Shown here: in pieces, positions 145 through 16,039 of the stretch
Position numbering within the stretch: the stretch's first letter is position 1
Layout of the letters: every line of letters starts with the position of its first letter
IMG/VR virus record: IMGVR_UViG_3300049830_000049
Location: 1-43,301 of that record
Length of the DNA: 43,301 nucleotides
Strand: one strand, 5' to 3'
DNA from: a virus
The notes under the pieces: generated by a model
The model's database searches: none
Told to the model about the DNA's origin: nothing
Seen by the model: only the letters and a program-made list of their open reading frames with translations
Made by a program: the position numbers and the translations under genes

Positions 145-718
145 TAAGACAACAAAGAATCAGAAGGCTAAGTTTCCTGCTGTCTGTGTTTCGGTGCCGG
201 TGATTGAAGAACAAACTATTCTTGATTCCGCGCATCGTTTGATTCCGTATATCCGCGGGCTGATGGAATCCGCGCAGGATGGGATTATTCGGAGCTTGTA
301 CGAAACCAAGAATGGTAGTTTGTCTTCGGTGCACGATGATGAAATCGGTGTAGATGCAATTGTCGGCTATCTGGTAGCTGAAGCGTCCGGGAACAGGTTG
401 ACAAAAGAACTCATTGAGAGCTGGTTCGATACTGCTGTCGCAGATAATCTGACTGTTGTGGTGGCTGAAAAGCTCGGTTTCGAAGAGTTGAATGATGAAC
501 AAATGCTGACAGTGCAAAAGCAATTGAATGGATTTAAGGGATTGGTCAGCAGTTTGGCAGGTGGAAAAACCATTCTGTCGGCTGTACAGATTACTGGTTG
601 CAGGAAAGTTATCGCACTGGCATCAGTTGACGGTGACGAAGTCAGTGAGCGGCTGACTGCTCGACTGGATGCGATGGAGCGGAAGGAAACGAAACTGGAA
701 GAACTGCTGGAGCTGTAA
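53..718 (+). CDS. Early phage protein, distant paralog of the 6450-7082 product
   Basis: A 221-aa protein of unknown function. It looks soluble, with no membrane segment or signal peptide. Codon use is strongly biased (CTG, GAA, GGT, AAG), unlike most neighbouring small genes, which suggests high expression. A pattern of P-x-V-x-V-x-V-P-V near residue 45, then an L-M-E helix, an N-G-S turn, a D-D-E triplet and an E-L-I-E helix reappears in the same order in the 6450-7082 protein. I infer that the two are distant paralogs. The first 30 codons lie inside the terminal repeat and are started again at 43210. The ATG at 53 follows the sequence TAGGTACCTCAA, so the ribosome site is only moderate. 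It is the second gene of the early operon if the map is circular. Confidence 0.85.
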   Translation: MSNVSTSHNVNPFVAGKSAALTGQRLARVIYKTTKNQKAKFPAVCVSVPVIEEQTILDSAHRLIPYIRGLMESAQDGIIRSLYETKNGSLSSVHDDEIGVDAIVGYLVAEASGNRLTKELIESWFDTAVADNLTVVVAEKLGFEELNDEQMLTVQKQLNGFKGLVSSLAGGKTILSAVQITGCRKVIALASVDGDEVSERLTARLDAMERKETKLEELLEL

Positions 719-861
719 TCTGGTGTAGTTTACTAACTGAGTGCATACTAGATTGCAGTGTCGGTCTAGTTGTGTACTCGAATTAGTAAATTAAAATCCT
801 GTAAGTAGACCGGTAGACTGACAGACCAAGACTGCCTCACCCCGGTCTAGCCGATGCTCTC

Positions 862-895
862 TGCACTAACTTCCACACTCTAGTTAGTTAGTGCA
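862..895. repeat. 9-bp perfect inverted repeat
   Basis: TGCACTAAC (862-870) and GTTAGTGCA (887-895) are exact complements separated by 16 bases. No T-run follows, so a terminator is unlikely. A protein-binding site or origin hairpin fits better. It borders the most AT-rich part of the region. Confidence 0.6.
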
Positions 896-1106
896 CCTAT
901 AATCTACACTACACTCTAATATACTAATATATCCCCCTATTAATAATTAAATAATTGTTTATATACAAATTTTTAGACGCCTAAATATTTACCCAATGAC
1001 GATAGGGTATAGAGCTATAGAGTGTAAAGGAGTAGATTAGGGCGTAGATTAATTATTATGTACGGATTAGTTATGAGGTATGAATGTATTAGTACACTGT
1101 TAGTTA

Positions 1107-1151
1107 GCCTATAGGCATGCCCTTGACACCCTATGGGTGTAGTGTTAGTCT
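1107..1151 (+). promoter_or_regulatory. Early promoter with two operator-like palindromes
   Basis: A perfect -35 box TTGACA (1123-1128) is followed after 17 bases by TAGTCT (1146-1151), preceded by TG at 1143-1144, so an extended -10 promoter. The perfect palindrome GCCTATAGGC lies 6 bases upstream of the -35. A second inverted repeat, ACACCC-TAT-GGGTGT (1126-1140), overlaps the -35 and the spacer. Both share the core CCTATRGG, about two helical turns apart, so a repressor may bind here. It would drive the small-gene cluster starting at 1205. Confidence 0.6.
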
Positions 1152-1204
1152 AGAGGTCTAGCAGTCTACTTACAGACTTTTATTTTAGTTTTCAAAGGTG
1201 AAAC

Positions 1205-1483
1205 ATGGGTGAAAATTCTTTATATTCTGTCACTAGCGGAGTAACCACAGTTCCATATCATTGGCACAATTGTAAAAGGTATTCAGAGCCAGAGATAAAG
1301 AAATTGATTAAGATAGTAGAAGAGCATGATTATAGAAAACATCTAAATGTTCCTCATTTGTTTTCTCTGTACCGACAGAAAATAACAGATGCAGGAGAAA
1401 CTAATGTTCAGTATGCTAGCTATCTAGCACTAAAACGGATTGTTGTTATACTGGTTAAAATGGAAGAGTTAACGAAAGTTTAG
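1205..1483 (+). CDS. Hypothetical small early protein
   Basis: A 92-aa protein that I do not recognise. The start follows AAAGGTGAAAC, a good ribosome site. The middle is charged and helical, rich in Lys, Glu and Tyr. The C-terminal part carries an R-I-V-V-I-L-V-K stretch that is amphipathic rather than membrane-spanning. It is the first gene downstream of the strong -35 promoter with palindromic operators, so it is probably made early. It could be a host-takeover or regulatory protein, but nothing in the sequence proves that. Confidence 0.7.
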   Translation: MGENSLYSVTSGVTTVPYHWHNCKRYSEPEIKKLIKIVEEHDYRKHLNVPHLFSLYRQKITDAGETNVQYASYLALKRIVVILVKMEELTKV

Positions 1484-1562
1484 CCAGATCTAGAACACTT
1501 TACAGAAGCATACTACAATGTGTTTCTGTGAGGCCGTTTTGAGCCGAACTAGGAGTATTATT

Positions 1563-2006
1563 ATGGGAACCTGCGATAAACACGGACAATTTAGTACACT
1601 TTGCCGTGCCTGTGATTTTGACACTATTGAAAAGGAAACTGAAATGAACACCGAGACCGAAACCAAACCCAATCAACCTGTACCCCATCGCTGGGCTGAA
1701 GTAATTAAAGCCTGGGCTGAGGGTAAAGAGATTGAATACAAGTGTGCTCCACGGCCCTGGAAAACCTACGATCAAAACGGCTCTGATGACAACGGCTTTT
1801 CTCCGGCATTTAATGAGCCAATCCTAGAATGGCGCATCAAGCCAGAAACTAAAACTGGCTGGATAAATCTCTATAATTCATACCGTGCTGGCATCTATGC
1901 AGGTAGTACTATCTATAAAACAAGAGAAGCCGCATTGGCCGGCGAAATGACTGTAATGCGTATCGCCTGTATCCAAATCACCTACACTGAAGGCGAAGGA
2001 CTCTAA
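1563..2006 (+). CDS. Hypothetical protein with N-terminal zinc-knuckle-like module
   Basis: A 147-aa protein. ATG 1563 is chosen because TAGGAG lies about 7 bases upstream; an earlier in-frame ATG at 1518 has none. Residues 3-19 contain C-x2-H and C-x2-C, like a small zinc-binding knuckle. The rest has the H-R-W-A-E-V-I-K-A-W segment and ends its core with E-W-R-I-K-P, a pattern I associate with small phage proteins of unknown role. A second in-frame ATG at 1644 follows AAGGAAACTGAA, identical to the ribosome site of the gene at 6450. A short form without the Cys module (120 aa) may therefore also be made. Confidence 0.75.
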   Translation: MGTCDKHGQFSTLCRACDFDTIEKETEMNTETETKPNQPVPHRWAEVIKAWAEGKEIEYKCAPRPWKTYDQNGSDDNGFSPAFNEPILEWRIKPETKTGWINLYNSYRAGIYAGSTIYKTREAALAGEMTVMRIACIQITYTEGEGL

Positions 2007-2008
2007 TC

Positions 2009-2314
2009 ATGTCTCAAACACCTTACACTTTCGATCGTCATCCTTACTGTAAATCTCCTAACTGTGCCTCAGATTGCGAATGTAAAAGCGAGTGCGCAGC
2101 AAAGGACGAGCAGCCCCAAAACTCTACTAAAACATTCTATGTAATAGTTGCCAAACATGACCCAGAACTGCCAAGTAAACTTTGCTATTTTGGATCAAAA
2201 CCTTTTGAAACAACAGACAAAACCTACGCACAATCAAAAGCTGAATCACTACAAGCTGATTTTGGGCGCGCATTTCCAGGGATTGAATATGTTGTAGGTA
2301 CAGTCACCTACTAG
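2009..2314 (+). CDS. Cys-rich N-terminal hypothetical protein
   Basis: A 101-aa protein starting two bases after the previous stop, so the two are probably translated together. Residues 14-30 hold six cysteines, counting closely spaced C-x4-C, C-x3-C-x-C and C-x3-C patterns, which suggests metal binding. A K-T-F-Y-V-I-V-A strand starts the C-terminal half, which is a compact alpha/beta-like segment of about 60 residues. Function unknown. The Cys-rich start echoes the Cys module of the gene before it. Confidence 0.7.
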   Translation: MSQTPYTFDRHPYCKSPNCASDCECKSECAAKDEQPQNSTKTFYVIVAKHDPELPSKLCYFGSKPFETTDKTYAQSKAESLQADFGRAFPGIEYVVGTVTY

Positions 2315-2324
2315 AGTCTCGCTA

Positions 2325-2352
2325 GTTAGCAGATACCTAAATGTCTGCTAAC
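2325..2352 (+). promoter_or_regulatory. Intergenic hairpin
   Basis: GTTAGCAGA (2325-2333) pairs exactly with TCTGCTAAC (2344-2352) around a 10-base loop. A short T-rich stretch, TATTTT, comes about 7 bases later, so this might be a weak terminator, attenuator or processing site between two small genes. It lies 35 bases upstream of the next start. Confidence 0.55.
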
Positions 2353-2387
2353 AGCGGTATTTTAGCCGTAGAAAGGATCACCGCGCC

Positions 2388-2705
2388 ATGAGCACAAAAA
2401 AGTACAGACCATATCTAACTCTAGCCGAGCTGAAACATTTACATCAGCTCTCCCATCAACAATCTCAAATCTCAGCCCTCACTCGTTATCTAGGCAAATA
2501 TATCTCAGATATCGAGTCTGGTTATCGAGTTGACAATTATGCAACCAGAGTTAATCCTAACTCAATGGTAGCTAAACTAGACCTAACCGATCCAACAACA
2601 GATTCCAAAACACTATTTGACGCTGAACAAGAACGTCGCTATACAAACAATGAAATGTCACCAAAAGAGGAAGCTGAATATGAAAAGCAAATCGGATTGG
2701 TATAA
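2388..2705 (+). CDS. Hypothetical small protein
   Basis: A 105-aa hydrophilic protein that starts after AAAGGATCACCGCGCC, a good ribosome site. The N-terminal half is helical, with many Gln and His residues near 18-30. The C-terminal third is very acidic and charged (E-Q-E-R-R, P-K-E-E-A-E). No known domain seen. It sits in the early cluster between two hairpin-bearing gaps. Confidence 0.7.
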   Translation: MSTKKYRPYLTLAELKHLHQLSHQQSQISALTRYLGKYISDIESGYRVDNYATRVNPNSMVAKLDLTDPTTDSKTLFDAEQERRYTNNEMSPKEEAEYEKQIGLV

Positions 2706-2802
2706 TCAACTATCCACACACTGGCAGCGATTTTGTTGGTACTACATCATTGTAGTCTCAACGTGCGCAGCTTATTATCTCAGTGCAAACTAGGAGATCT
2801 AA

Positions 2803-3039
2803 ATGTCTCTAATCTATCGAGTCCTTAACAATGGAAAACCCGCTGTAATTGAAGGCTCCAAAATTTGGATCAATTCGGACTTTCCAACTCTAGAAGAAGC
2901 AGCCAATTATCTAAGAAATTGGCTAGGTTGCTATGCCGAGGGTCTCACAAACGACTATATCATAGACAATATGATATTGAAGCCGTATGATTACGACGGC
3001 TACGGAGACACAGTTCAAATTGTTCGTGTAAATGTTTAA
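2803..3039 (+). CDS. Hypothetical small protein
   Basis: A 78-aa protein with ribosome site TAGGAGATCTAA. It begins like a small beta protein (Y-R-V-L-N-N-G-K-P) and contains a helix around E-E-A-A-N-Y-L-R-N-W. It is not recognised. The following gene begins after an almost identical leader, GGAGATCTAAATGTCT. That suggests copying or shared control of the two starts, not homology of the proteins. Confidence 0.7.
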   Translation: MSLIYRVLNNGKPAVIEGSKIWINSDFPTLEEAANYLRNWLGCYAEGLTNDYIIDNMILKPYDYDGYGDTVQIVRVNV

Positions 3040-3051
3040 CTGGAGATCTAA

Positions 3052-3264
3052 ATGTCTATCCTTCACACTTTCCCTCTCACAGTTCTTTCTGACATCACCG
3101 GCGAAAGACTGCATGAAACTCCTCATTTCAAAGGTTACATTCCTCAGCGTGGAGAATGTTTTAAAGTAGGCTCAAACCTGCAATACTGTGTTCAACGCCG
3201 CGAGTTCTATTACAACGAAGACATGGAAGTTATTGCTGTAGAATTGTATGTAGTAACTGTTTGA
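3052..3264 (+). CDS. Hypothetical small protein
   Basis: A 70-aa protein in the same operon, starting 12 bases after the previous stop behind TGGAGATCTAA. The composition suggests a small all-beta fold: alternating hydrophobic residues, several Tyr, and the end E-V-I-A-V-E-L-Y-V-V. No function can be assigned. Confidence 0.68.
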   Translation: MSILHTFPLTVLSDITGERLHETPHFKGYIPQRGECFKVGSNLQYCVQRREFYYNEDMEVIAVELYVVTV

Positions 3265-3305
3265 TATACGGCCTAAAAACTATCTCATCGTAAAGGATTC
3301 TAACC

Positions 3306-4316
3306 ATGCACTGTCTATGTGCCTACTCTTCAGTAGAGTTTGAAGTAACTCACTTCCCAGGCTACCTAACTTCCCGAGAAGTAGCTCATCCAATCTTCTC
3401 TCTGCCTCAGAAGAAACTGCTTTCCTATCTCGGTCGCTGGGCTACAGGTACAGCATTTACTCCAACAGATAACTATCTCTTATTTCTCTCAATCCTGCAT
3501 TCTTCTGATCTAGTTGAGTTCCGTGTCCCTGCAATCAGAACAGAATCCACCCCACAAATCATTGCACAGAATATGGAAGCTCTGTGTAAATCTATCTCCC
3601 GTCTCAACACAGTCGTAAATCCTGCAGTAGTTTTCCCTCGATACGTAATCTCTCCAGAAACTAAAGATCTCTCAAATGTAGCTTACTGGATTCATAACTG
3701 GAACCAAGCCTACCAAGATTTCACTGACGGCTATCGCTCAGCTCATGATTCATCTAAACTAATCCAGCGTGAACATGCTCTCGAAAGACTAATCAAAAAT
3801 CCGCATCGTCCAGTTAGCTCTTATGCAGGACAAATAGCTGATTGGGCCGCAGAAGCCGGAAACTTCCCGACAGCTATAACTGTCTCACGGCTAACCGGAC
3901 AACGCTGTTCTATCTCAGACTACTGGAAACAAATCATTTCCAAGTGTGCTCACGAAGATAGCCTGTTTGCAATCAATCGACAGGATCTGGAAGAACTATT
4001 GGAACACTGCGAAACAGAGATTCCAATTGGCTCAATCTTCTCTAATGCACTCTTCTCAGTTCTACGCCATGCAATCAAACGTCAGCGTAATTTCCTAGAC
4101 ATAGCTGATCTAGAAACTGGCACATCTAATTTCGGTACAGGCTATCGAATTCTATCCCCTACAGATTCTGTAGAGTCAGCAAATATGCAAGCCCTAATCA
4201 TGTCTGCACCTGCAGATAAGCCGAAAGAGAAAGATTACCCAAGTAAGATGGCATACCTCAAAGCCAAAATGCGCTGGGAAATGGCACAGAAGTATGCACC
4301 TGGAGACCAATCATGA
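3306..4316 (+). CDS. Hypothetical protein preceding the helicase
   Basis: A 336-aa protein with ribosome site AAAGGATTC. It has no Walker motif, zinc cluster or membrane segment. It looks mostly helical, with several Trp-containing helices at residues 125-215 and a lysine-rich C-terminus containing K-E-K-D-Y-P-S-K-M-A-Y. The stop overlaps the next start (ATGA), and the helicase follows one gene later, so a role beside the helicase (loader, primase-like or recruitment factor) is possible. That is inference from position only. I do not recognise the family. Confidence 0.8.
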   Translation: MHCLCAYSSVEFEVTHFPGYLTSREVAHPIFSLPQKKLLSYLGRWATGTAFTPTDNYLLFLSILHSSDLVEFRVPAIRTESTPQIIAQNMEALCKSISRLNTVVNPAVVFPRYVISPETKDLSNVAYWIHNWNQAYQDFTDGYRSAHDSSKLIQREHALERLIKNPHRPVSSYAGQIADWAAEAGNFPTAITVSRLTGQRCSISDYWKQIISKCAHEDSLFAINRQDLEELLEHCETEIPIGSIFSNALFSVLRHAIKRQRNFLDIADLETGTSNFGTGYRILSPTDSVESANMQALIMSAPADKPKEKDYPSKMAYLKAKMRWEMAQKYAPGDQS

Positions 4317-4621
4317 GCACTAAAATCATTGTCCCCGGATATTTGCAATCTAATTTCTACCTAACTTCAGCTCAACGAGAATCTTGTGATCGCTACTATC
4401 TTCTCTACTGGGCGACATCTTATTATCTCGGCGCACTAAAGCTTTATCCTGAAACAATCACACGACAGGATATAGATTATCGTGTACATTATCTTTCCCA
4501 GTTGAGTACAACGGAATTGAGAACTAAACTAGATGGAACAATAAAACTATCTTTCCGCCGTCAGCGCGGATCAGATGTAGGCATTGTATTGGTAGATGAG
4601 ATTTACAACACAAGGAACTAG
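4313..4621 (+). CDS. Hypothetical small protein, coupled to helicase
   Basis: A 102-aa basic protein whose ATG overlaps the stop of the preceding gene by four bases, indicating coupled translation. It is rich in Tyr and Arg, with a tyrosine-rich segment (Y-Y-L-L-Y-W-A-T-S-Y-Y) and a basic S-F-R-R-Q-R-G patch near residue 85. The helicase starts 8 bases after its stop. It could bind nucleic acid, but no known domain is visible. Confidence 0.72.
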   Translation: MSTKIIVPGYLQSNFYLTSAQRESCDRYYLLYWATSYYLGALKLYPETITRQDIDYRVHYLSQLSTTELRTKLDGTIKLSFRRQRGSDVGIVLVDEIYNTRN

Positions 4622-4629
4622 AGGATACT

Positions 4630-6291
4630 ATGAGCACACTAACTAAATCCCATTTGAACGAACTATTGGCAAAACTGAAAGCCGAGCGCGAAGCGAACAG
4701 CGAGGCAGATAAAGCCCCGGAATCTAAAAGTTCGCCAAACTCTCTTGCATCCAACCAAGTTGTAGACAAATACGGCAAACTAATTACTCTAAACTCTCAG
4801 CAATCTCGTTTTGTGCAACTGGCAGGACACGAAGGCCAATCAGCAGTTCTAATTGGTCCTGCAGGTACAGGTAAAACAACTACACAATATGCCGTTACTC
4901 AAGAACTAATCCAATCTGGTTTAGCTGGAGTTCTTTCAGCCGATGGCCATAAACATCTAAAGACAGGATCACCCGGCATCGTAGTTTGCGCATATACCCG
5001 GCGAGCAGTTGCAAATATTCGTCGCAATCTGCCTCTCGATCTGCAAGATAATGCAATCACAATTCATAAGCTGCTCGAATACGAACCAGTCTATTACGAA
5101 GTAGAGGATCCTGAAACTGGCTCAACTAAATCTAAGATGTCATTTGAACCTACACGCACACGAGATAGTCCAATTCCATCTAGTGTTCGTGTTGTGATTA
5201 TAGAAGAATCTTCGATGCTCTCAGTCGATCTCTACAAACGTTTGGCTGATGCTTGCCCACATCGACCACAGTTTATTTTCCTGGGAGATATCCAACAGCT
5301 TCCGCCAATCTTTGGACCAGCTATTCTAGGTTTCAAAATCCTATCTCTCCCGCATGTAGAACTAACTGAAGTCTACCGGCAAGCTTTAGAGTCCCCGATT
5401 ATTGCACTAGCGCATAGGATTCTTTCAGGTAAAACAATCGATCAGGTAGAACTACCTAACTGGAACAAACCAGGTCAGCTCACAATCAAACCCTGGAAGA
5501 AAAAGATCTCAGCCGAGAATGCTCTTCTAACCGCAGCCGCATTCTTTAAGCAAGCTGAAACTCTCGGCGTCTACAATCCAGACGAAGACACAATTCTTAT
5601 CCCGTTCAATAAAGCATTCGGCACCGACGAACTAAACAAACATGTAGCAAATCATCTGGCCCGTAAAAGAAATTCGGTAACTTATGAAATCATTGCAGGT
5701 TTCCAGAAACATTACTTCTCAGTTGGCGATCGTGTAATGTACGATAAGGAAGATGCAGAGATTATTGAGATTGCACGAAACCCTAACTATTTTGGAGCTG
5801 AGCCGAAAGTAGAATCAGACACTCTAGATTACTGGGGCCAGCATCAAGGAGAAGTACACAAAACAGATTTCTCTGAAGATGAAGCAATGGATTTTCTTCT
5901 GGCGGCAACCGCAGCATCAGGCGAAGATAAAGTTCGCCAATGCTCTCACACAATTAAACTGCGGATGCTGAATACAGACAGTGTCGTGACTATAGATAAA
6001 GCAGGTGATTGCAATCTTCTGGCTCTAGGTTATGCTCTCACTGTGCACAAATCTCAGGGCTCAGAATGGAGAAAAGTATTTCTGTGTATCCATCAATCTC
6101 ATGCAACAATGACGTCTCGCGAACTTCTTTACACTGCTGTAACTCGTGCGCGCGAAGAGTTGTATATCATTTGTGAACCAGATACACTAGTTAAGGGTAT
6201 CAATTCTCAACGTGTAAAGGGAGACACACTAGAAGAGAAGGCGGAACACTTTAAGGGTAAAATAGAGGAAGGTTATGTCGTCAATTTCTAG
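4630..6291 (+). CDS. SF1 DNA helicase, RecD/Dda-like
   Basis: A 553-aa ATP-dependent DNA helicase that probably moves 5'-3' at the replication fork or in recombination. All major superfamily 1 motifs are visible: Walker A GPAGTGKT (76-83), Walker B I-I-E-E-S-S-M (E192, E193), motif III GDIQQLPP (219-226), motif IV E-V-Y-R-Q (R250), motif V TVHKSQGSEW (471-480) and motif VI YTAVTRAREE (501-510). The length fits the Dda/RecD2 type. The first 45 residues are charged and probably disordered. The start follows AGAGGATACT. It belongs to the early operon and lies directly upstream of a fresh promoter at 6333. Confidence 0.93.
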   Translation: MSTLTKSHLNELLAKLKAEREANSEADKAPESKSSPNSLASNQVVDKYGKLITLNSQQSRFVQLAGHEGQSAVLIGPAGTGKTTTQYAVTQELIQSGLAGVLSADGHKHLKTGSPGIVVCAYTRRAVANIRRNLPLDLQDNAITIHKLLEYEPVYYEVEDPETGSTKSKMSFEPTRTRDSPIPSSVRVVIIEESSMLSVDLYKRLADACPHRPQFIFLGDIQQLPPIFGPAILGFKILSLPHVELTEVYRQALESPIIALAHRILSGKTIDQVELPNWNKPGQLTIKPWKKKISAENALLTAAAFFKQAETLGVYNPDEDTILIPFNKAFGTDELNKHVANHLARKRNSVTYEIIAGFQKHYFSVGDRVMYDKEDAEIIEIARNPNYFGAEPKVESDTLDYWGQHQGEVHKTDFSEDEAMDFLLAATAASGEDKVRQCSHTIKLRMLNTDSVVTIDKAGDCNLLALGYALTVHKSQGSEWRKVFLCIHQSHATMTSRELLYTAVTRAREELYIICEPDTLVKGINSQRVKGDTLEEKAEHFKGKIEEGYVVNF

Positions 6292-6332
6292 TTTAGTTTC
6301 GCCCTGAGCTAACTTAGACTGTCGCGTACCCC

Positions 6333-6361
6333 TTGACAGCTAACCCCAGATCGCTTATCAT
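6333..6361 (+). promoter_or_regulatory. Strong sigma70-type promoter
   Basis: TTGACA (6333-6338), 17 bases, TATCAT (6356-6361): consensus -35 and five of six at -10. The predicted start of transcription is near 6368, leaving an 82-base leader with a GGGAT-AAC-ATCCC hairpin (6421-6433) just before the ribosome site. The heptamer AGCTAAC occurs at 6307 and 6338, 31 bases apart, and could be operator half-sites. Confidence 0.8.
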
Positions 6362-6449
6362 GCGTGCATCGGTTAGGCAAACACCGACCCAAAGTTTGCC
6401 GAATCTCAAACCATCTCAACGGGATAACATCCCATCTAAGGAAACTGAA

Positions 6450-7082
6450 ATGACTGAAGCTAACCAAACCAACCAAACCGAAATCGTCGCAAACGTTGAT
6501 CCGACTGTCACTTTTACGGACTTCAAGTTCCGTTTTAAGAAGGATAAGATGGACAATCAACGTCCGACGGTTGAACTGAAGTTGCCGGTTCCTAATGCTC
6601 AAGGTATTATTGAAATCCTGAAGGCTGGCGGTAAGCAACTTGAACTGCTGCTGGAAGTTGTTGCTGATACTGTTCGTTCTGCTGCTGGTAGTTTTGTTGC
6701 AGATGACGAACGCATTAGCCAAGATACTTTCCCGATGGAAAAGATTTCTTGGCTGGCAATTGCAACTGCCCCGCGCGCTGAACGTAAGACGATTGCTCCG
6801 GAACTCTGGGAAGCTTTTGCTAAGGATTACCTGGAAATCATGCCGGGTGTCACTAACAAGAAGCCGGAAGCTATTGCTCTTGCTGTTGAAGTCTATCAAA
6901 AGAAATTCAGCATTGTTAAGACCAACAAGGAAATCCTGGGCAAGCTGAAGGATCAACTGTCTATGTATGTTGAACATACTAAGTCTGGTGACCAGTTCGC
7001 TGAAATCCTGGAACTGCTGCTTGGCAAGCTGGACACTTACCTGAAGGCCAACGATGTGGAATTGCTGGCTGCGAATCTGTAA
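6450..7082 (+). CDS. Highly expressed early protein, distant paralog of the 53-718 product
   Basis: A 210-aa soluble protein of unknown function. ATG 6450 is chosen because AAGG lies 8 bases upstream. A longer reading from TTG 6333 would start on the promoter -35 box and cannot be right. Codon use is very biased (CTG, GTT, AAG, GAA), pointing to high expression. The protein has R-P-T-V-E-L-K-L-P-V near residue 39, then helices E-L-L-L-E-V, A-G-S, D-D-E and A-P-E-L-W-E, an order shared with the protein at 53-718. It has its own strong promoter upstream and a terminator-like hairpin downstream (7195-7242), so it forms its own transcription unit with the structured RNA between them. A DNA-binding or host-modulating role is possible but unproven. 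Confidence 0.88.
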   Translation: MTEANQTNQTEIVANVDPTVTFTDFKFRFKKDKMDNQRPTVELKLPVPNAQGIIEILKAGGKQLELLLEVVADTVRSAAGSFVADDERISQDTFPMEKISWLAIATAPRAERKTIAPELWEAFAKDYLEIMPGVTNKKPEAIALAVEVYQKKFSIVKTNKEILGKLKDQLSMYVEHTKSGDQFAEILELLLGKLDTYLKANDVELLAANL

Positions 7083-7086
7083 AAGA

Positions 7087-7176
7087 TTTTCTATCTCTTG
7101 AACACCCCGTTAGGCCCGAGGGTAAATGTCTGTAAAAGTATCGGGCAGTAAGCGATGACTAACAAGAGATAGAGAA
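7087..7176 (+). ncRNA. Candidate structured RNA with nested stems
   Basis: Starting five bases after the stop of the gene before it, the sequence can form an outer 14-bp stem (7087-7100 with 7163-7176, one G-U), a middle stem GTTAG/CTAAC (7109-7113 with 7159-7163, sharing one base with the outer stem) and an inner 6-bp stem GCCCGA/TCGGGC (7114-7119 with 7141-7146). ACCC (7104-7107) could also pair with the loop GGGT (7120-7123) as a pseudoknot. It does not match tRNA, tmRNA or a riboswitch known to me. It would be made as the 3' part of the transcript from 6333. Function unknown: it could be antitermination RNA, a regulatory RNA or a 3' stabiliser. Confidence 0.5.
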
Positions 7177-7194
7177 TGTACCTGGACACGTACT

Positions 7195-7242
7195 AAAACT
7201 GTCCACACTAACAACTGTGCATTCCGCTAGTGTACAGTTTTT
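7195..7242 (+). terminator. Rho-independent terminator-like hairpin
   Basis: AAAACTGT (7195-7202) pairs with ACAGTTTT (7234-7241). After a CC bulge, ACACTA (7205-7210) pairs with TAGTGT (7228-7233). The loop is 17 bases, and a T5 run ends the structure (7238-7242). It probably ends the transcript from 6333 after the structured RNA. The bulge and AT-rich base make it weaker than a textbook terminator. Confidence 0.6.
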
Positions 7243-7277
7243 AATGTCTACCTTCCCAATCTTCTAGGAACATTCAA

Positions 7278-7553
7278 ATGTCTTTCCACTTCTCAGATTT
7301 CATGACTCTTCTCAATGCAGTTTCTGCTGCAGTTCACACTGTTGAACAAATCATGCCAGCTTCTGCCGGTGCAGCTAAACTGGATGCAGCTATTCAACTG
7401 GTTCAAGCAACTGCACCGGCATTGAAACAAACTGCTGATGAACTTAAGCCAGTTGTGAATGTAGTTGTGGCAGCAGCTAAATCTGTTGGCGGAACTCTTA
7501 ACTCTACGCCTGTCAATCCAATTGATGCGGCATTGAGTGGCGTGAAGGTGTAA
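7278..7553 (+). CDS. Small Ala/Val-rich protein between structured RNAs
   Basis: A 91-aa protein with ribosome site TAGGAACATTCAA. More than a third of the residues are Ala or Val. It looks like two amphipathic helices, with a Val/Ala-rich stretch (P-V-V-N-V-V-V-A-A-A) near residue 58 that is short for a membrane span. No known domain. Its position is odd: a terminator-like hairpin precedes it and a 16-bp stem-loop follows it, so it sits alone in a short unit. Alternatives are a small membrane-active protein or a structural filler. Confidence 0.7.
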   Translation: MSFHFSDFMTLLNAVSAAVHTVEQIMPASAGAAKLDAAIQLVQATAPALKQTADELKPVVNVVVAAAKSVGGTLNSTPVNPIDAALSGVKV

Positions 7554-7584
7554 AAACTTCTGTAGGCCTGGAACTTTCTGGGTC

Positions 7585-7685
7585 TATTTAGCTGCACACT
7601 GGCTGGTAACTTTCACAGGTGTTTCGGTTTTGGTCGACTAAAAGCAGTGAAATGTCAAAGCAGAAATCTAGTGTGTAGCTAAATA
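7585..7685 (+). ncRNA. Candidate structured RNA with 16-bp closing stem
   Basis: Bases 7585-7600 pair with 7670-7685 over 16 bp with a single G-U. Inside, TTTCAC (7611-7616) pairs with GTGAAA (7647-7652), and TTTTGG-TCGA-CTAAAA (7628-7643) forms an end hairpin. No T-run follows, so it is not a simple terminator. It ends 26 bases before the weak GTG start of the next gene and may control it, or may be a stand-alone small RNA. Confidence 0.5.
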
Positions 7686-7711
7686 AATCCGATAACTAAA
7701 TCAGCGCAGCC

Positions 7712-7969
7712 GTGGGCATCGAAGCCAATCCTAGTGCAAGACAATACAATTCGATTTGGACTAGACTGAAACAAGATCATACTGTTTCTGTGGCAGCTCC
7801 GCGTGCACTGCATAATAGAATCTGGCGTGCTGTCCAGAAAGAGAAGTGGTTGGATCTAGGCTATAAGCTGGAACTAGAACCACGTACAGCAGTAATGACT
7901 CATGCTAGTAAGAACTCTGTGTTAACTTTCTGGCTTGAGTTTAAACCATTAAGTGTAGAAGATTTCTAG
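7712..7969 (+). CDS. Hypothetical small phage protein, GTG start
   Basis: An 85-aa protein. An in-frame stop at 7697-7699 leaves GTG 7712 as the only sensible start, and no ribosome site can be seen before it. Translation may depend on the folded RNA just upstream. The central part resembles small phage proteins of unknown role: A-A-P-R-A-L-H-N-R-I followed by a K-E-K-W helix. The C-terminus ends in V-E-D-F. The next gene follows 17 bases later. Confidence 0.65.
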   Translation: MGIEANPSARQYNSIWTRLKQDHTVSVAAPRALHNRIWRAVQKEKWLDLGYKLELEPRTAVMTHASKNSVLTFWLEFKPLSVEDF

Positions 7970-7986
7970 ACGAAAGGTAATTAATC

Positions 7987-8319
7987 ATGTCTCGACAACC
8001 AAATGTATATCGTGTACTTACAGGCTCGAAAGTTGCACGAACTGACAAAGCAATCCTATTTGCGGTCCATGAGATCTCTGGAACTAAGCTAGACAAGCCG
8101 CTAAAAGCAACTTGGTTTCCGTTGTCTCAAGTTAACAAAACATTTACCGATCCAACTGAGCCGAACAAAGATTGGATCTCAGTCACCGAATGGATCTGTA
8201 AGCAGAAAGATATTGATCTCAAAGCTTATCCTCTGACAGTAGAAGAAGATCAAGCAATTGAAGAGCCCGACGAAGAAGATTTCGATATCGATGAACTCGA
8301 CGGCCATCCGCCTTTCTAA
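7987..8319 (+). CDS. Hypothetical protein with SSB-like acidic tail
   Basis: A 110-aa protein with ribosome site AAAGGTAATTAATC. The first 75 residues look like a compact domain rich in Lys, Thr and Trp. The last 28 are extremely acidic and end E-D-F-D-I-D-E-L-D-G-H-P-P-F. Bacterial SSB proteins end in a similar acidic tip closing with Pro-Phe, which binds polymerase, helicase and nuclease partners. I infer that this protein may bind DNA or mimic the SSB tip. The body does not show an obvious OB-fold pattern, so it could also be something else with an acidic tail. Confidence 0.72.
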   Translation: MSRQPNVYRVLTGSKVARTDKAILFAVHEISGTKLDKPLKATWFPLSQVNKTFTDPTEPNKDWISVTEWICKQKDIDLKAYPLTVEEDQAIEEPDEEDFDIDELDGHPPF

Positions 8320-8337
8320 TCCTCAAGGAAACTAATC

Positions 8338-8583
8338 ATGACCAGCACTTACAAAGACTCTCAAGTAATTATTCCTACTGCAGACTTTGGAGAGGTTGAT
8401 ATTAAACTTCAAGAGACCATTAAGCTGGCAGCTGATCTTAACATTCCTTACCCGATGCTGATTGGTTTGCTTCAAACTCATTTGCATGCAATCACTCAAC
8501 AATTTATTTTGATGCAATCTCAACAGATTATGCAAGCCCAGGCACTGTATAATGTAGGAGCTGCAAATGGACAACCAATCTAA
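8338..8583 (+). CDS. Hypothetical small helical protein
   Basis: An 81-aa protein with ribosome site AAGGAAACTAATC, starting 18 bases after the previous stop. Residues 20-75 are helical and Gln-rich (Q-Q-F-I-L-M-Q-S-Q-Q-I-M-Q), suggesting a coiled coil or oligomer. The 3' end overlaps the next gene by 17 bases. Function unknown. Confidence 0.72.
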   Translation: MTSTYKDSQVIIPTADFGEVDIKLQETIKLAADLNIPYPMLIGLLQTHLHAITQQFILMQSQQIMQAQALYNVGAANGQPI

Positions 8584-8866
8584 TCCGAATGTAGGTTTTG
8601 AGCTGAAGGAAAAAGTAGCTGAGTTATCTACTCTACTTCTCTCCAAGCATCCTACAATGCCAACTCTGTTGCAACAGATCCACAAAACTCTGCGGCAGTA
8701 TCCAGAACAAGTTACGATTCTGGCACCTGAAGAGTTAGCTATTGTAGTAAACGGATTGAAGCAACAGACTAATACAATGTTTGCAGCAGCACTAACTAAG
8801 CCATCAGCATCTAAGACTAAGAGTCTGTCGAATAAAATCGCCACTCTTGGCGCCGACGCTTTCTAG
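8567..8866 (+). CDS. Hypothetical small helical protein
   Basis: A 99-aa protein. ATG 8567 lies within the end of the previous gene, with GTAGGAG as ribosome site, so the two are coupled. It is mostly helical, with two Leu-rich segments (A-E-L-S-T-L-L-L and L-L-Q-Q-I-H-K-T-L-R) and a basic, Ser/Lys-rich C-terminal region. It may partner with the preceding helical protein. No known domain. Confidence 0.72.
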   Translation: MDNQSNPNVGFELKEKVAELSTLLLSKHPTMPTLLQQIHKTLRQYPEQVTILAPEELAIVVNGLKQQTNTMFAAALTKPSASKTKSLSNKIATLGADAF

Positions 8867-8876
8867 GAGTTTGCAG

Positions 8877-9026
8877 ATGCAAAACTATATCCAATCTCGC
8901 TACCAAATCCCTGATCGTTTCAAGCGCACGCCGATTGCAAACACAACTGCATTTGTTTGTGCCTACTGGTCTCAACTCAATGCAATCTTCTTTGCACAAC
9001 AGACTCCTAATAGCCTCAATAGCTAG
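8877..9026 (+). CDS. Short hypothetical protein
   Basis: A 49-aa reading frame with ribosome site TAGGAG placed 7 bases before ATG 8877. It has basic and aromatic residues early (R-Y-Q-I-P-D-R-F-K-R) and a Trp-containing helix. A different frame stays open from 8935 to 9474 and runs on through the end of this gene, so the true gene may be longer if there is a frameshift. The gap 9027-9137 otherwise holds no clear gene. Confidence 0.5.
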   Translation: MQNYIQSRYQIPDRFKRTPIANTTAFVCAYWSQLNAIFFAQQTPNSLNS

Positions 9027-9137
9027 CGGACTTCTAGCAAAAGATTTCAGACTCTTATCTAACTGGCTCCAATGTGAGCCTTTTAGTATTTGTACAGAAC
9101 AAACACTGTATCAACCACTCATTCAGGAAATACAATC

Positions 9138-10187
9138 ATGCTTTCCCTCGAAGAGTTGCTCGACAATCCTGTATCTTCTGTGGGATTACGCAGTTCAGAT
9201 TCAGGAAACGATGACGATGACGGAACAGCAGGAGCTGACATTGTTGCTTGGCACGAATCTGGATATGAAGGAACAATTGATTACAGGATTCGCCAACTTA
9301 GCTACAGCTCACTTCTCACGCTGCATTCGTGCCCAAGAAAATTTCAACTTAACCGACTACGATCTACTCACAGAACAGAAGAAGATCTCAAGTCAACAAT
9401 CACATTCGCCTTCGGCCACGTTGTTGGAGCAGCTATCCAATCTATCCTCGCTGGAACATCTGAAGACCAAGTAATCTTTGAGATCTTTCTAGGATGGCAC
9501 ACCGATCTATTTGCAGAAGACGAGAAGAATAAGAAATCGGTTTGGTATGCCATTCTCGCGGCCCAAAGATTCCTCAGTATTCGAGCTTCAGGATTCCTAA
9601 ATGAGTACGAACTTGTATATGTGGACGATCGTCCTGCTTGTGAGCTTAGCTTCAGTATCAACTTTCCTGACGGCTTTCGTCTTCGTGGTTTCGTGGATGC
9701 TGTTCTGCGACACAAAATCACAGGTGAGATTGTTGTGCTTGAAGTTAAGACTACAGGTTCTGTTACTCTTAATCCTGCCACATATAAAAACTCTGCTCAA
9801 GCTGTCGGTTATTCTGTGGTGCTTGACAATCTCTTTCCTGATCTATCTTCATACACTGTAATCTATCTAGTCTATCAAACTAAGTCTCAAGAGTACACAC
9901 CAATCCCATTTGTTAAATCATTTCTTCAGCGCGCACTTTGGATTCGTGAGCTGTTGTTAGACATTGAGATGATTAAGCTATACGAAGAAGCTGAAGTCTA
10001 TCCGATGCACGGTGAATCCTGTCATACATTTGCAAGAGAGTGTGAATACTTTCAGACATGCACATTGAGTACGGAATATCTGACTAAGAAGTGCACGCCT
10101 GAAGAAGAAGATAAGACAGTGTACCAAGTGCAGATTGGATTGGAAGATCTATTGGATTCACAACTGAGAAAGGTAGAGGTGACTTGA
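9138..10187 (+). CDS. Cas4/RecB-like PD-(D/E)XK nuclease with Fe-S cluster motif
   Basis: A 349-aa nuclease that probably trims DNA ends for recombination or replication. ATG 9138 is chosen because of AGGAAATAC upstream. The core shows L-H-S-C-P-R-K-F (C65), a motif I His (H94), Asp in G-F-V-D-A-V-L (D187), L-E-V-K (E202, K204) and the Q-A-V-G-Y motif (Q221). Three cysteines at 295, 302 and 308 join C65 to form the four-cysteine set of Cas4/AddB-type Fe-S nucleases. Residues 15-45 are acidic and probably disordered. It lies upstream of the Sak4-like ATPase, a pairing seen in phage recombination cassettes. A 179-aa open frame overlaps its start in another frame. Confidence 0.88.
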   Translation: MLSLEELLDNPVSSVGLRSSDSGNDDDDGTAGADIVAWHESGYEGTIDYRIRQLSYSSLLTLHSCPRKFQLNRLRSTHRTEEDLKSTITFAFGHVVGAAIQSILAGTSEDQVIFEIFLGWHTDLFAEDEKNKKSVWYAILAAQRFLSIRASGFLNEYELVYVDDRPACELSFSINFPDGFRLRGFVDAVLRHKITGEIVVLEVKTTGSVTLNPATYKNSAQAVGYSVVLDNLFPDLSSYTVIYLVYQTKSQEYTPIPFVKSFLQRALWIRELLLDIEMIKLYEEAEVYPMHGESCHTFARECEYFQTCTLSTEYLTKKCTPEEEDKTVYQVQIGLEDLLDSQLRKVEVT

Positions 10188-10188
10188 T

Positions 10189-10398
10189 ATGAAATATCCT
10201 ATGCGCGAAAAATATGTAGATGAACTCACTGGAGGACCTTGGTTTAGTTTTGGAGAAACGTCCAGTGGACTTGTAGATATTGCCAATGCAAATCAAGATT
10301 GCATTCTTCCGGATATGCCTAAAGAGTTGGCTGAAAAAGTTATAGAATTGCACGGCAAGTTTATGGAAGATTTGTATAAACTAATTGCATTGAGGTAG
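10189..10398 (+). CDS. Hypothetical small protein
   Basis: A 69-aa protein one base after the nuclease stop, with ribosome site GAGGTGACTTGAT inside the end of the nuclease gene. It contains a G-G-P-W-F-S-F-G turn and a C-terminal helix rich in Glu and Lys. No function can be assigned; it is probably translated together with the nuclease. Confidence 0.68.
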   Translation: MKYPMREKYVDELTGGPWFSFGETSSGLVDIANANQDCILPDMPKELAEKVIELHGKFMEDLYKLIALR

Positions 10399-10405
10399 AA
10401 ACGGT

Positions 10406-10705
10406 ATGAAACTCAAACACATTGAGACAGGCGAAGTAATTACTTGTACTCGCCGACTATACTACAAATATTACAGAGACTGTAAACATCTTTGGTTAGA
10501 CGTAACGCCAGAGCCAACTGAAGCTCAGAAAAAAGTTCAAGAAGCTTTTGTAAAACTAGGCACACTTTACAGAACTAGAGCTAACATTCAATCGGTTATT
10601 GAAATGTGCGGATCGCATCATGGACTATTCTTTGATGCAATTAAAGGAATCAATTACTACATCAAGGAAATTCGAGATGAAATTAAGCCAAAAGACACTA
10701 ACTAA
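10406..10705 (+). CDS. Hypothetical basic protein
   Basis: A 99-aa protein rich in Lys, Tyr and Arg (Y-Y-K-Y-Y-R-D). The first 35 residues look like a small beta unit beginning M-K-L-K-H-I-E-T-G-E-V-I, and the rest is helical. The 3' end overlaps the start of the RecA-fold ATPase gene by 29 bases, indicating coupling with it. Nucleic acid binding is possible given the charge, but unproven. Confidence 0.68.
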   Translation: MKLKHIETGEVITCTRRLYYKYYRDCKHLWLDVTPEPTEAQKKVQEAFVKLGTLYRTRANIQSVIEMCGSHHGLFFDAIKGINYYIKEIRDEIKPKDTN

Positions 10706-11555
10706 TACAACTCGTATTGCAATTGTAGGTCTATCTGGTACAGGTAAATCAACTCTTGCGGCCGAGCTATCTAAAAAGTTTCACCTTCATTGGTTCACAC
10801 TCGATAACGATTCTGACATTCTTCTCAAGCTTCCTCCAGAGCAGCAACAGAATGTAGAACTTTACGACATTCCAGACTCTGCATCTTTCCCAGCGGCTGC
10901 AGATACTCTGATGAAGCTATTCAAAGCTAAGTCAGGTAAGATTTGTCACAAGCATGGAGTATTCAATTGTCCTAACTGCACAAAGAATGCTCCGGAAGAT
11001 TTCTCTCCAATTGACTTCACAGCTCTAGACCCCAAAGAAGACATTGTTGTAATCGACACTGGTTCTCAACTGTCTCATTCTATTCTAGCTAAAGCTACAC
11101 AAGGTCAGCCTGTAGATTACAAACCAGAACGAGATGACTGGGGCGCATTGCGTAAGTGGACTGAGTTCTTCTACTCAGAATTCCAGGCAGCTAGATTCAA
11201 TCTCGTAGTTATCTTTCATGCAATTGAAGCTGAGATGGAAGACGGCAAATCAAAGATTGTTCCAGCATTCGGCTCCAAAGATATGTCCTCCAAGATCTCT
11301 GGTGCCTTCTCTCATGTAGTCTACACAGATATCATTAACAAACGTCATCGCGCATTCACTCGCTCAACAGAGTTTGGTAATGTGCTAACCAAATCTCGTA
11401 CAGACTTTGATATCTCAGCCTTGGAAACTCCTAGTCTTATCCCAATTTTTACAGGAGAAATGCCTATCGTAGATGTTAAACAAGTTAATACTCCTGGAGA
11501 GAAAGCTCTTACAGGTCTGGCTGCAATCAAAGCGAATCTAAACAAAGCTAAGTAG
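10677..11555 (+). CDS. Sak4-like RecA-fold ATPase (recombination/annealing)
   Basis: A 292-aa ATPase likely to promote single-strand annealing or strand exchange. ATG 10677 is chosen because AAGGAAA lies 7 bases upstream; an earlier start at 10599 would add 26 residues out of the coupled context. Walker A GLSGTGKS spans 18-25 and Walker B V-V-I-D (D127) precedes T-G-S-Q. Between them, C90, H92, C98 and C101 look like a zinc knuckle inserted in the ATPase core. The family is known as AAA_24 or Sak4 and usually sits next to a phage SSB, here the 12222 gene. A plain phage ATPase of another role is the alternative. Confidence 0.82.
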   Translation: MKLSQKTLTNTTRIAIVGLSGTGKSTLAAELSKKFHLHWFTLDNDSDILLKLPPEQQQNVELYDIPDSASFPAAADTLMKLFKAKSGKICHKHGVFNCPNCTKNAPEDFSPIDFTALDPKEDIVVIDTGSQLSHSILAKATQGQPVDYKPERDDWGALRKWTEFFYSEFQAARFNLVVIFHAIEAEMEDGKSKIVPAFGSKDMSSKISGAFSHVVYTDIINKRHRAFTRSTEFGNVLTKSRTDFDISALETPSLIPIFTGEMPIVDVKQVNTPGEKALTGLAAIKANLNKAK

Positions 11556-11565
11556 GTACACAACC

Positions 11566-12195
11566 ATGTTCAAACCAGACTTCCCTAAACTCATCGGCAT
11601 TCATGGACACGCAGGTACAGGTAAAGATACTATTGCAAAGTTTCTACACTCAACTCGTGATAACACTTGGGCACTAGCATTTGCAGATCCTCTGAAGGAA
11701 GCCTGTGCTACAATGTTCGGATTGCCTATTAATCGTTTCTATCAGGCAGATGTTAAAGAACTACCAGATTCTTTGTGGGATGTTTCTCCTCGTGAGATTT
11801 TGCAATATGTAGGTACAGAGATCATTCGTCATTTTGATTTAGATTTCTGGGTCAATCGTATGCATCTTGAACTTACTAATCAAACTGCAGATGCACGAAA
11901 CTATAACTCAGATGATATAGTTGTAATTACTGATGTTAGATTCCAGAACGAATATGATTATGTAGTACAAAACTCTGGTATTGTGATCCACTTGACACGG
12001 CCAGGATATGATGGTAAAGTCGGTATTCCCGGTCACCAATCGGAAGCCGGAATTCAATTCACTAAACCGGAGGTAACATGGTCTATTAGTAACGACTCTA
12101 CACTTGACAATCTGTACGGCAAAGTAGATGAATGTGTAAACCATTTCGGTATCTACAAGTCTACACCAAACGTTTTTGATCCCGCTAATTTCTAA
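11566..12195 (+). CDS. Deoxynucleoside monophosphate kinase
   Basis: A 209-aa kinase that phosphorylates dNMPs to dNDPs for phage DNA synthesis. The P-loop is GHAGTGKD (14-21), preceded by L-I-G-I-H. A-F-A-D-P-L-K and the helix P-R-E-I-L-Q-Y-V-G-T-E typify T4 gp1-like dNMP kinases. V-I-T-D-V-R-F (near 121-127) matches the substrate or Mg site region, and G-H-Q-S-E follows the lid. The length fits the family. It lies between the recombination ATPase and the SSB candidate, consistent with a nucleotide-supply role. Confidence 0.88.
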   Translation: MFKPDFPKLIGIHGHAGTGKDTIAKFLHSTRDNTWALAFADPLKEACATMFGLPINRFYQADVKELPDSLWDVSPREILQYVGTEIIRHFDLDFWVNRMHLELTNQTADARNYNSDDIVVITDVRFQNEYDYVVQNSGIVIHLTRPGYDGKVGIPGHQSEAGIQFTKPEVTWSISNDSTLDNLYGKVDECVNHFGIYKSTPNVFDPANF

Positions 12196-12221
12196 ACCCA
12201 ACACACTGAAAGATCTATATC

Positions 12222-12671
12222 ATGTCTAATTCTGATTTCGACGTCAACGCAATTCTCGATGGCACTCTGGACGATCTGGCTGACATGCCGGAATTCAAGC
12301 CTTTCCCTGCAGGTACTCACAAGGTTGTTATCAATTGGGTTGATAAGACTGCAAAGGATAAGCGAGTCAATAATCATCCGGGCTTTGAACTGAAAATGAA
12401 GCTGGTAGAAACTGTAGAAGTTACCAATGCAGGTGAAGCAGTTCTGGCGCCCGGTGCAGAAACTTCTGTGCTGTATCTGCTGGATAACGAGATCGGTCAA
12501 GGTAGCTTTAAGAAGATTCTGGCCTCGCTGGCTGAACATTACGGCGCCAAATCTAATCGTGAACTGGTTGCTGAATCCAATGGCGCCGAAGTTTTGGTGA
12601 TTACTAAGCAGCGCGCCAACAAGGAAAAGACGCAAGTCTATACTGATGTTGTTGAACTGCAAGTTATTTAA
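12222..12671 (+). CDS. Probable phage ssDNA-binding protein
   Basis: A 149-aa protein. After an acidic start (D-F-D-V-N-A-I-L-D) come alternating beta-like segments, including P-A-G-T-H-K-V-V-I, F-E-L-K-M-K-L and a C-terminal V-E-L-Q-V-I, resembling DUF669-type phage proteins and an OB-like fold. Codon use is biased toward CTG, GAA and AAG, implying high expression as expected for an SSB. Position after the Sak4-like ATPase and kinase supports this reading. No acidic C-terminal tip is present, unlike bacterial SSB. Family assignment is by pattern and context, not certain. Confidence 0.65.
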   Translation: MSNSDFDVNAILDGTLDDLADMPEFKPFPAGTHKVVINWVDKTAKDKRVNNHPGFELKMKLVETVEVTNAGEAVLAPGAETSVLYLLDNEIGQGSFKKILASLAEHYGAKSNRELVAESNGAEVLVITKQRANKEKTQVYTDVVELQVI

Positions 12672-12687
12672 CCAACAGGAGAATACT

Positions 12688-12912
12688 ATGTGCAAGAATT
12701 GTGAACAAACCACTAACGCAGGTGCTGCCGTAGGTATTGTTGCAAGAGTTAATCCTAATACCGAGGCAGAAACTATTGGCGATCTTCTTAATGAGCGCAT
12801 TAAGAATGCTCGCAAACATCTTGAAGAACTTTGCATTAAGCGCGCAAAGGCTGAAGCTAGCGGTCTCGATAAGTTTCCGGCAGAAGTTGTTCACGACATG
12901 TTCTGGAACTGA
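12688..12912 (+). CDS. Hypothetical small protein with N-terminal Cys pair
   Basis: A 74-aa protein. ATG 12688 follows CAGGAGAATACT. The first residues, M-C-K-N-C-E, give a C-x2-C pair; the remainder is one long charged helix (R-I-K-N-A-R-K-H-L-E-E-L), a possible coiled coil. It ends 8 bases before the hairpin that precedes the tRNA. Role unknown. Confidence 0.7.
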   Translation: MCKNCEQTTNAGAAVGIVARVNPNTEAETIGDLLNERIKNARKHLEELCIKRAKAEASGLDKFPAEVVHDMFWN

Positions 12913-12920
12913 TCTAGAGT

Positions 12921-12971
12921 CCTAACTTCTGTACCTCAGAGTTCACAAGACTTTGGGGTATTTTAGTTAGG
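12921..12971 (+). ncRNA. Long hairpin just upstream of the tRNA
   Basis: CCTAACT (12921-12927) pairs with AGTTAGG (12965-12971). After a 4x4 internal loop, 12932-12942 pairs with 12950-12960 over 11 bp with two G-U pairs, leaving a 7-base loop. The tRNA starts 11 bases later. It may be a processing signal, a weak terminator or a separate small RNA; no long T-run follows. Confidence 0.5.
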
Positions 12972-12982
12972 TCTTTAATCCA

Positions 12983-13067
12983 GCTCCGGTGGTGAAATAG
13001 GTAGACACAGCAGACTTAAAATCTGCCAACGAAAGTTGTACCGGTTCGAGTCCGGTTCGGAGCACCA
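12983..13067 (+). tRNA. tRNA-Leu (anticodon UAA)
   Basis: An 85-base class II tRNA with encoded CCA (13065-13067). The acceptor GCTCCGG pairs with TCGGAGC (one G-U). The anticodon stem GCAGA/TCTGC holds the loop CTTAAAA, giving UAA. The variable arm is a CAAC-GAA(A)-GTTG hairpin, and the T arm ACCGG-TTCGAGT-CCGGT is complete. It reads UUA, a codon frequent in this phage, and may compensate for a host that uses it rarely. Confidence 0.95.
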
Positions 13068-13085
13068 AACATTTAGAGGTTAACT

Positions 13086-13283
13086 ATGTCTAAAAACTAT
13101 GGATGTGAACTGGTCGATGGCGTATGGTGGGAACTGACAGATACATTCTATGGTCCCATTGTATTTGACAGACTCTTACCCCAAGACTGGCCATTATATT
13201 TCCATAACGAATTCATTTTGGAAGTAGCCACAAATCCAAATCTAGATTGTGTAGGCATTTACACAAATGGATGGGAACTCTAA
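13086..13283 (+). CDS. Hypothetical small protein upstream of DNA polymerase
   Basis: A 65-aa protein starting 18 bases after the tRNA, behind AGAGGTTAACT. It is Trp- and Tyr-rich (V-W-W-E-L-T-D, D-W-P-L-Y-F) and probably folds as a small beta unit. Its stop touches the polymerase ATG, so the two are coupled. No function can be assigned. Confidence 0.7.
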   Translation: MSKNYGCELVDGVWWELTDTFYGPIVFDRLLPQDWPLYFHNEFILEVATNPNLDCVGIYTNGWEL

Positions 13284-16033: not shown

Positions 16034-16039
16034 GTTAGA

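Follow-up and report, generated by a model that had tools for sequence, protein, structure and literature searches.

Phage translational operators are known from T4 gp32, gp43 and the MS2 coat. Folded RNAs that stop exonucleases are a strategy of eukaryotic RNA viruses. Coremin (xrRNA-C) is a proven block of Xrn1 and occurs in benyviruses, cucumoviruses, hypoviruses and chrysoviruses (PMC10520033). Its sequence, GUCCGAAGACGUUAAACUAC, can be laid out as GUC-CGAA-GACGUUAAACUAC, and it also blocks scanning ribosomes (PMC10520033). The xrRNA of flaviviruses, which is separate from coremin, stops the bacterial RNase J1 in vitro (PMC5760640); an exonuclease block is, thus, physically possible in bacteria. 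A search of the literature, with preprints and subscription papers mostly outside its coverage, yielded no record of a phage or bacterial xrRNA, of a conserved intergenic pseudoknot in phages, or of the elements A and C described below.

The window, i.e., the whole stretch of 43,301 nucleotides analysed here (IMG/VR record IMGVR_UViG_3300049830_000049), is a phage genome, in which genes for a Dda-like helicase, DNA polymerase, primase, portal, capsid and terminase were identified. The gap between its genes P0002 (6450-7082) and P0003 (7712-7969), both on the plus strand, is rich in structured RNA; taken as a whole, the 629 nt (7083-7711) reach a z of -4.30 against shuffles. DNA and protein searches with the gap region and with P0002 gave no match to named phages. 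P0002 is an early gene of 210 amino acids; its product is mostly helical and of no known family, and a fold search gave no significant match. The original prediction had called this gene highly biased and equipped with a consensus promoter of its own, and both points held. Codon bias is strongest in P0002 among the 15 genes tested (Nc 34.4 versus 37.7 for the major capsid and 53.6 for the DNA polymerase gene), and the best sigma-70-like site within 1-18500, TTGACA-17-TATCAT at 6333-6361 (plus strand; 11/12, a consensus match only), lies ahead of it.

The gap had also been described as a cluster of three long-stemmed and non-random RNA folds, the first of which resembles no known class. Non-random they are, all three beating their shuffles. 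The absence of a known class was confirmed as well: with the covariance models of Rfam 15, tRNA was the sole match in the window, and permissive thresholds at the loci of A and C yielded nothing relevant, only chance or tRNA matches. The three are, however, not of one kind. Element 1 recurs in one other phage, hairpin 2 is not conserved, and the third element, here called C, is probably a leader. The most conserved of the foldable RNAs, pseudoknot A, was not even on the list; the energy fold cannot see pseudoknots and, therefore, missed it. As to the tRNA (12983-13064), a 13-bp hairpin with a T-run is found directly 5' of it (12931-13064 for both).

Via P0002, 22 related loci were collected from IMG/VR. 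Their stretch 3' of the P0002 stop comprises recurring motifs of the types A, C and D and no single conserved block; some relatives are devoid of one or another of them, and none was seen in L016-L018, L020 and L021. The gap of the window further contains P0001 (7278-7553, plus strand), a gene of 91 amino acids that is present only there and in the near-identical contig L001/L162. Since A and C adjoin with no gene between them in L003 and L012, P0001 is probably a lineage-specific insertion between two RNA elements.

Element A (7178-7204, plus strand) is an H-type pseudoknot of 27 nt. It abuts element 1, lies between elements 1 and 2 and overlaps the 5' flank of hairpin 2. In the window, its stem S1 (7178-7181 with 7190-7193) reads GTAC/GTAC, its stem S2 (7184-7188 with 7200-7204) GGACA/TGTCC, and the A-rich linker is UAAAAC (7194-7199). 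The consensus is nnTCCTRRRYATGAnnTAAAACTGYYY. A pattern scan of IMG/VR gave, among the matches listed, at least 127 distinct 30-mers, mostly from phages without this gene neighbourhood. Short BLAST queries detected A in named phages of Staphylococcus, Mycobacterium, Arthrobacter, Lactobacillus, Nostoc and others; with queries that short, a host group without a match is weak evidence. The S1 pairs left free by the pattern are formed in 126 and 109 of the 127 matches listed, versus shuffle means of 55 and 58. Those of S2 are formed in 122 to 127 of the 127 listed; here the pattern limited the letters to R/Y, which the shuffles take into account. Even base pairs prescribed by the pattern are exchanged elsewhere, to CGACC...GTCG in Lactobacillus phiEF-1.1, Staphylococcus B166 and Latilactobacillus TMW 1.1365 P1, to CAACC...GTTG in crAssphage cr7_1, and to AC/GT in the window. 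In a set of 23 sequences from this clade and from named phages (one row being one base short and its column gapped), 97.1% of the cells are paired versus 77.0% after shuffling and at most 44% after sliding, with 49 two-sided changes. Judged by these comparisons, A is a conserved, covarying H-type pseudoknot that is read on the coding strand.

The genomic position of A is equally distinctive. Among the 127 matches listed, 66 lie 0-20 nt behind a same-strand stop (ORFs of at least 60 amino acids), versus 5 for the opposite strand and 5.6 for random places, and 12 fall inside a same-strand ORF versus 86 expected by chance. The distance to the stop starts sharply at 7 nt, with 23 of the listed copies at 7, 13 at 8, 10 at 9 and none below 7. 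The bias in strand and position implies that A acts as RNA, not as DNA. Distances of 50-400 nt are also found; in the window it is 95 nt, because element 1 intervenes. Of 134 copies among the matches listed, 18 precede a same-strand tRNA by 2-13 nt, named examples being Nostoc NMeng1 and Arthrobacter Molivia. The upstream gene encodes DUF932 in 21 of 91 cases, followed by a single-stranded-DNA-binding protein (Gp2.5-type SSB), ribonucleotide reductase and Hsp20, counts that partly reflect the kinship of the phages; the genes downstream are mixed. Kinship of the IMG/VR contigs inflates such context counts, not the variety of pair types. Two copies deserve a separate remark. In crAssphage cr7_1 (L293, 601-627), the A with swapped pairs (CAAC/GTTG) overlaps an annotated tmRNA, the true 5' end of which may follow directly. 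In Vibrio phage D456 g1 (L289, 598-626), a complete A lies on the strand opposite to nearby annotated small genes.

A is not confined to phages. A scan of 84,980 species revealed 113 stretches, many of which are not phage-like. The records belong to Deltaproteobacteria, Omnitrophota, Aminicenantes, Clostridia/Peptococcaceae, Saccharibacteria, Chloroflexi, Actinobacteria and, in three cases, Euryarchaeota. In many of those that are not phage-like, A comes after a Cys-rich ORF of about 18 codons with the approximate reading M(K/R)RFM(L/I)PRVAHCxxGC, or has its stop in common with it, and next comes a terminator or a gene (Rrf2 in 4 of 63, hemerythrin, GRDB). The combination was seen in L203, L185, L240, L187, L233, L251 and others, from Deltaproteobacteria, Omnitrophota, Aminicenantes and Peptococcaceae; the stop codon of some of these ORFs is a TGA within the pseudoknot.

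Element C (7585-7685, plus strand) is of a different kind. The segment 7554-7711 folds with a z of -3.27 (4 of 200 shuffles were as good) into an 18-bp helix P1 (7585-7602 with 7668-7685) and an inner stem (7610-7616 with 7647-7653), which enclose a core of CTGGTAA (7603-7609) and GTCAAAGCAGAAAT (7654-7667). In the relatives, CTGGTAA ... GTCAAWGCAGAAAT recurs between two variable helices. The core, CUGGUAA plus UCAAWGCAGAAA, is invariant or nearly so, most of these bases having been demanded by the search pattern itself. The flanking helices were outside that pattern, and their covariation is, therefore, independent evidence. Across 17 distinct copies, two-sided changes affect 19 of 24 pairs and number 121 versus 37.6 after shuffling; the share of paired cells is 93.6% versus 65.2% after shuffling and at most 42.5% after sliding; and the covariation score is 0.79 versus 0.21 after shuffling and at most 0.15 after sliding. 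The third fold was to be abandoned if homologous phages displayed no covariation; its 24 pairs covary strongly. The aligned copies demonstrate that C is a conserved RNA that is read on the coding strand and consists of two helices and an internal loop that does not vary.

Most copies of C are followed by a gene of the P0003 family. P0003 encodes 85 amino acids, starts with GTG and has no Shine-Dalgarno sequence. Its product is confidently modelled as a small alpha/beta protein, for which a fold search gave no significant match (best SpoVS, E 0.23). The anti-Shine-Dalgarno energy at its start is +0.3 kcal/mol, versus -3.9 to -8.8 for most other genes tested in the window, where the starts at 1518 and 12222 also lack the sequence. 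It is -1.8 or weaker in 10 of the 14 relatives found, and at least moderate (-3.0 to -4.0) in L004, L007, L022 and L159. In L002, L011, L012, L086 and L159, the start codon is found at the foot of P1, 17 nt after GCAGAA, and in several relatives P1 goes as far as the start codon or covers it. In L146 (minus strand), a gene resembling an HNH endonuclease sits between C and the P0003 homologue. C would be the leader of P0003 and govern initiation without a Shine-Dalgarno sequence, most simply as a structured operator that is possibly bound by P0003. Recruitment of ribosomes by C independently of a Shine-Dalgarno sequence would be the more novel reading.

How can these RNAs be understood together? 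We infer that the gap provides separate cis-acting RNAs on one early transcript, with A as a roadblock and C in charge of the P0003 start; this joint reading comes close to an even chance without quite reaching it. Placed just 3' of a translated gene, A would punctuate polycistronic phage RNA as a compact mechanical roadblock. It would halt an exoribonuclease, possibly also sliding ribosomes, and the transcript on one side of A would outlive that on the other. A cut downstream of A, by RNase P at an adjacent tRNA or by an endonuclease, would turn A into the nuclease-resistant 3' end of the upstream mRNA. A may, therefore, be regarded as a roadblock punctuating transcripts, in one direction or the other. 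Nuclease-resistant 3' ends had been part of the original prediction. For A this role is kept as the favoured one. Antitermination and trans-acting or decoy RNAs, proposed in the same place, found no positive evidence in the tests made here.

The roadblock might work in one direction only. As a strict 5'→3' block, a bacterial xrRNA, A would stop RNase J and leave a stable RNA downstream. The coremin-like sequence and spacing of A fit this idea, as does its location ahead of scaffold and capsid genes in staphylococcal and lactobacillar phages (phiEF-1.1, B166) and in D6E. The scarcity of clearly gammaproteobacterial carriers, two records by title among those found in the scan of 84,980 species, points the same way, and the flaviviral xrRNA sets a precedent for a halt of RNase J1 in vitro (PMC5760640). 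However, RNase J is not present in every carrier, which makes a role of A tied to this enzyme alone doubtful: it scored above the TIGR00649 cut-off in 27 of 46 A-carrying genomes, several of the others being incomplete, and by the same cut-off it was not found in the complete Aminicenantes chromosome CP070750. That weakens the idea of RNase J alone as the partner of A. Also, A is anchored to the upstream stop. Finally, RNase P strips off the RNA 5' of a tRNA and would remove A from the tRNAs; protection of downstream RNA, therefore, does not explain the copies next to tRNAs. We consider a strict 5'→3' block unlikely.

The opposite direction accounts better for the carriers without RNase J and for the tRNA cases than a pure 5'→3' role does. 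After a cut by RNase P or an endonuclease, the short-tailed pseudoknot would cap the 3' end and bar 3'→5' exonucleases from the upstream mRNA. The gap of 2-13 nt between A and the tRNA would leave a tail of a length that is often too short for RNase R or PNPase; RNase J is not required; and the anchoring behind a stop, with upstream genes such as those for DUF932, Gp2.5-type SSB and ribonucleotide reductase, is in line with a cap. Many copies of A, however, have no tRNA, an intrinsic terminator that is sometimes found about 40 nt past A in bacterial genomes would make the cap redundant, and the likeness to coremin points the opposite way. As an exclusive function, the cap too is improbable, if conceivable.

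Quite improbable is that A acts on ribosomes, be it by halting the sliding of terminated 70S particles or by insulating the next RNA from them. The sharp minimum of 7 nt between stop and A, the position of the bacterial A on the stop of the 18-codon ORF and the block of scanning ribosomes by coremin (PMC10520033) would suit such a role, yet there is no known need for it and the distances of 50-400 nt disagree. A readthrough or frameshift signal is ruled out, since its distance from the stop is not tied to any frame and tRNAs directly follow some copies. A block of Rho was set aside because of the copies in cyanophages and archaeal records; to our knowledge, the hosts of cyanophages and archaeal viruses have no Rho.

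The remaining stems of the gap are those of element 1 and hairpin 2. In element 1 (7086-7177, plus strand), two inner stems lie within a stem of 15 bp (7086-7100 with 7163-7177); the segment 7083-7180 folds with -31.6 kcal/mol (z -3.75), which none of 200 shuffles equalled. Among IMG/VR contigs, L144 is the only one in which the inner domain of element 1 (AGGCCCGAnGGTAAAT...TATCGGGCAG..AGC) was met again, behind the P0002-like gene of that contig, and two pattern scans for a wider family gave L144 and L162 only. Hairpin 2 with its T-run (7213-7242, plus strand) is not conserved as such. The region 7190-7250 forms 11 bp (7213-7223 with 7229-7239) plus a bulged extension (z -3.07; 3 of 200 shuffles were as good); terminator-like matches within 1-18500, hairpin 2 included, number 12 versus 14.0 in shuffles. 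The arms of hairpin 2, AACTGTGCATT/AGTGTACAGTT, are similar to the helix that closes the D elements in L005 and L014, and hairpin 2 may, therefore, be the remnant of a D element that lost its core.

The D type, GTGCATTGG...GTTAAAAC...GGCCAGTG, occupies the same gap in relatives (L005 from 895, L013 from 3890, L014 from 1567, L019 from 3636), and its closing helix is like that of some copies of C. This helix has 18 bp (...GTGCATTGG/CCAGTGTGCAAC...), with the GTTAAAAC motif inside, and the type is related to the CATAAA variant of C in L022. The RNA island also contains T-arm-like stretches (GGTTCGATTCC, GGGTCGAATCC; L006, 3621-4100; L013, 4000-4040) with no tRNA call by ARAGORN. Long stems of unrelated sequence stand 3' of P0002 in L010 and L017-L020, which suggests that this site favours stable stems. 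Element 1 and hairpin 2 would simply be additional 3'-UTR stems of the strongly expressed-looking P0002. A reading in which every stem is just an ordinary 3'-UTR hairpin, an RNase III site or a terminator, without any special role, is very unlikely: the poor conservation of element 1 and hairpin 2 and the unrelated stems at the same place in other relatives would agree with it, and for these two it stands, but it leaves the invariant loop bases and the covariation of A and C unexplained and is refuted for both.

If the roadblock reading of A is true, a strategy of eukaryotic RNA viruses, halting an exonuclease with a folded RNA, is also found across DNA phages. Named phages with A have hosts that can be cultured (Staphylococcus, Mycobacterium, Arthrobacter, Lactobacillus, Nostoc), so this is directly testable. 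C, in turn, offers a handle on the start of a phage gene without an ordinary ribosome-binding site. The boldest version is tentative and, in our view, doubtful: exoribonuclease-resistant pseudoknots of 27 nt would set the decay boundaries of mRNA in phages of many phyla, perhaps also in archaeal viruses, convergent with coremin and used by bacteria at the 18-codon ORF, while C would replace the Shine-Dalgarno sequence.

Among the known systems, the put RNAs of HK022 and other antitermination RNAs share with the gap that they are structured early RNAs of phages; the tests made on the gap RNAs lend antitermination no support. STAXI (PMC2864571) is, like A, a small pseudoknot of bacterial or mobile DNA, yet it forms tandem repeats near SSB or topoisomerase genes and A has no Rfam match; instead of tandem pseudoknot repeats as in STAXI or type III antitoxins, the window contains one copy of A. 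The operators of T4 gp32, gp43 and the MS2 coat resemble C in being structured RNA at the start codon of a small or nucleic-acid-binding protein, whereas the two-helix core CUGGUAA/GUCAAWGCAGAAAU is unlike any of them. Coremin comes closest to A. The A form CGTC-CTGAGCAT-GACGTTAAACTGCTC resembles GUC-CGAA-GACGUUAAACUAC, and of the 14 positions that do not vary in the phage set, we count 11 that agree. Both have a 4-bp hairpin 1 closed by UC/GA, then a UUAAACU-type spacer (in A, GA-nn-nnAAACU, one common form, GACGTTAAACT, being identical to coremin), and a loop that starts with C and ends with A-(A/U); both often lie in a 3' UTR or have a stop codon within them. The loop of A (CTRRRYAT), however, deviates from the coremin consensus YGAD/YGNNAD, the first C and the final A-U agreeing and the G of position 2 not. 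With its 8 nt it is larger than that of coremin, and it forms S2 by pairing with the 3' part of the spacer; coremin instead continues right after the spacer with a second hairpin, which A lacks. Coremin is carried by eukaryotic RNA viruses, A by DNA phages and bacteria, and coremin is one of many motifs that could come to mind, so that the likeness is suggestive only. In view of loop and second hairpin, we do not class A as a coremin, though it may work like one.
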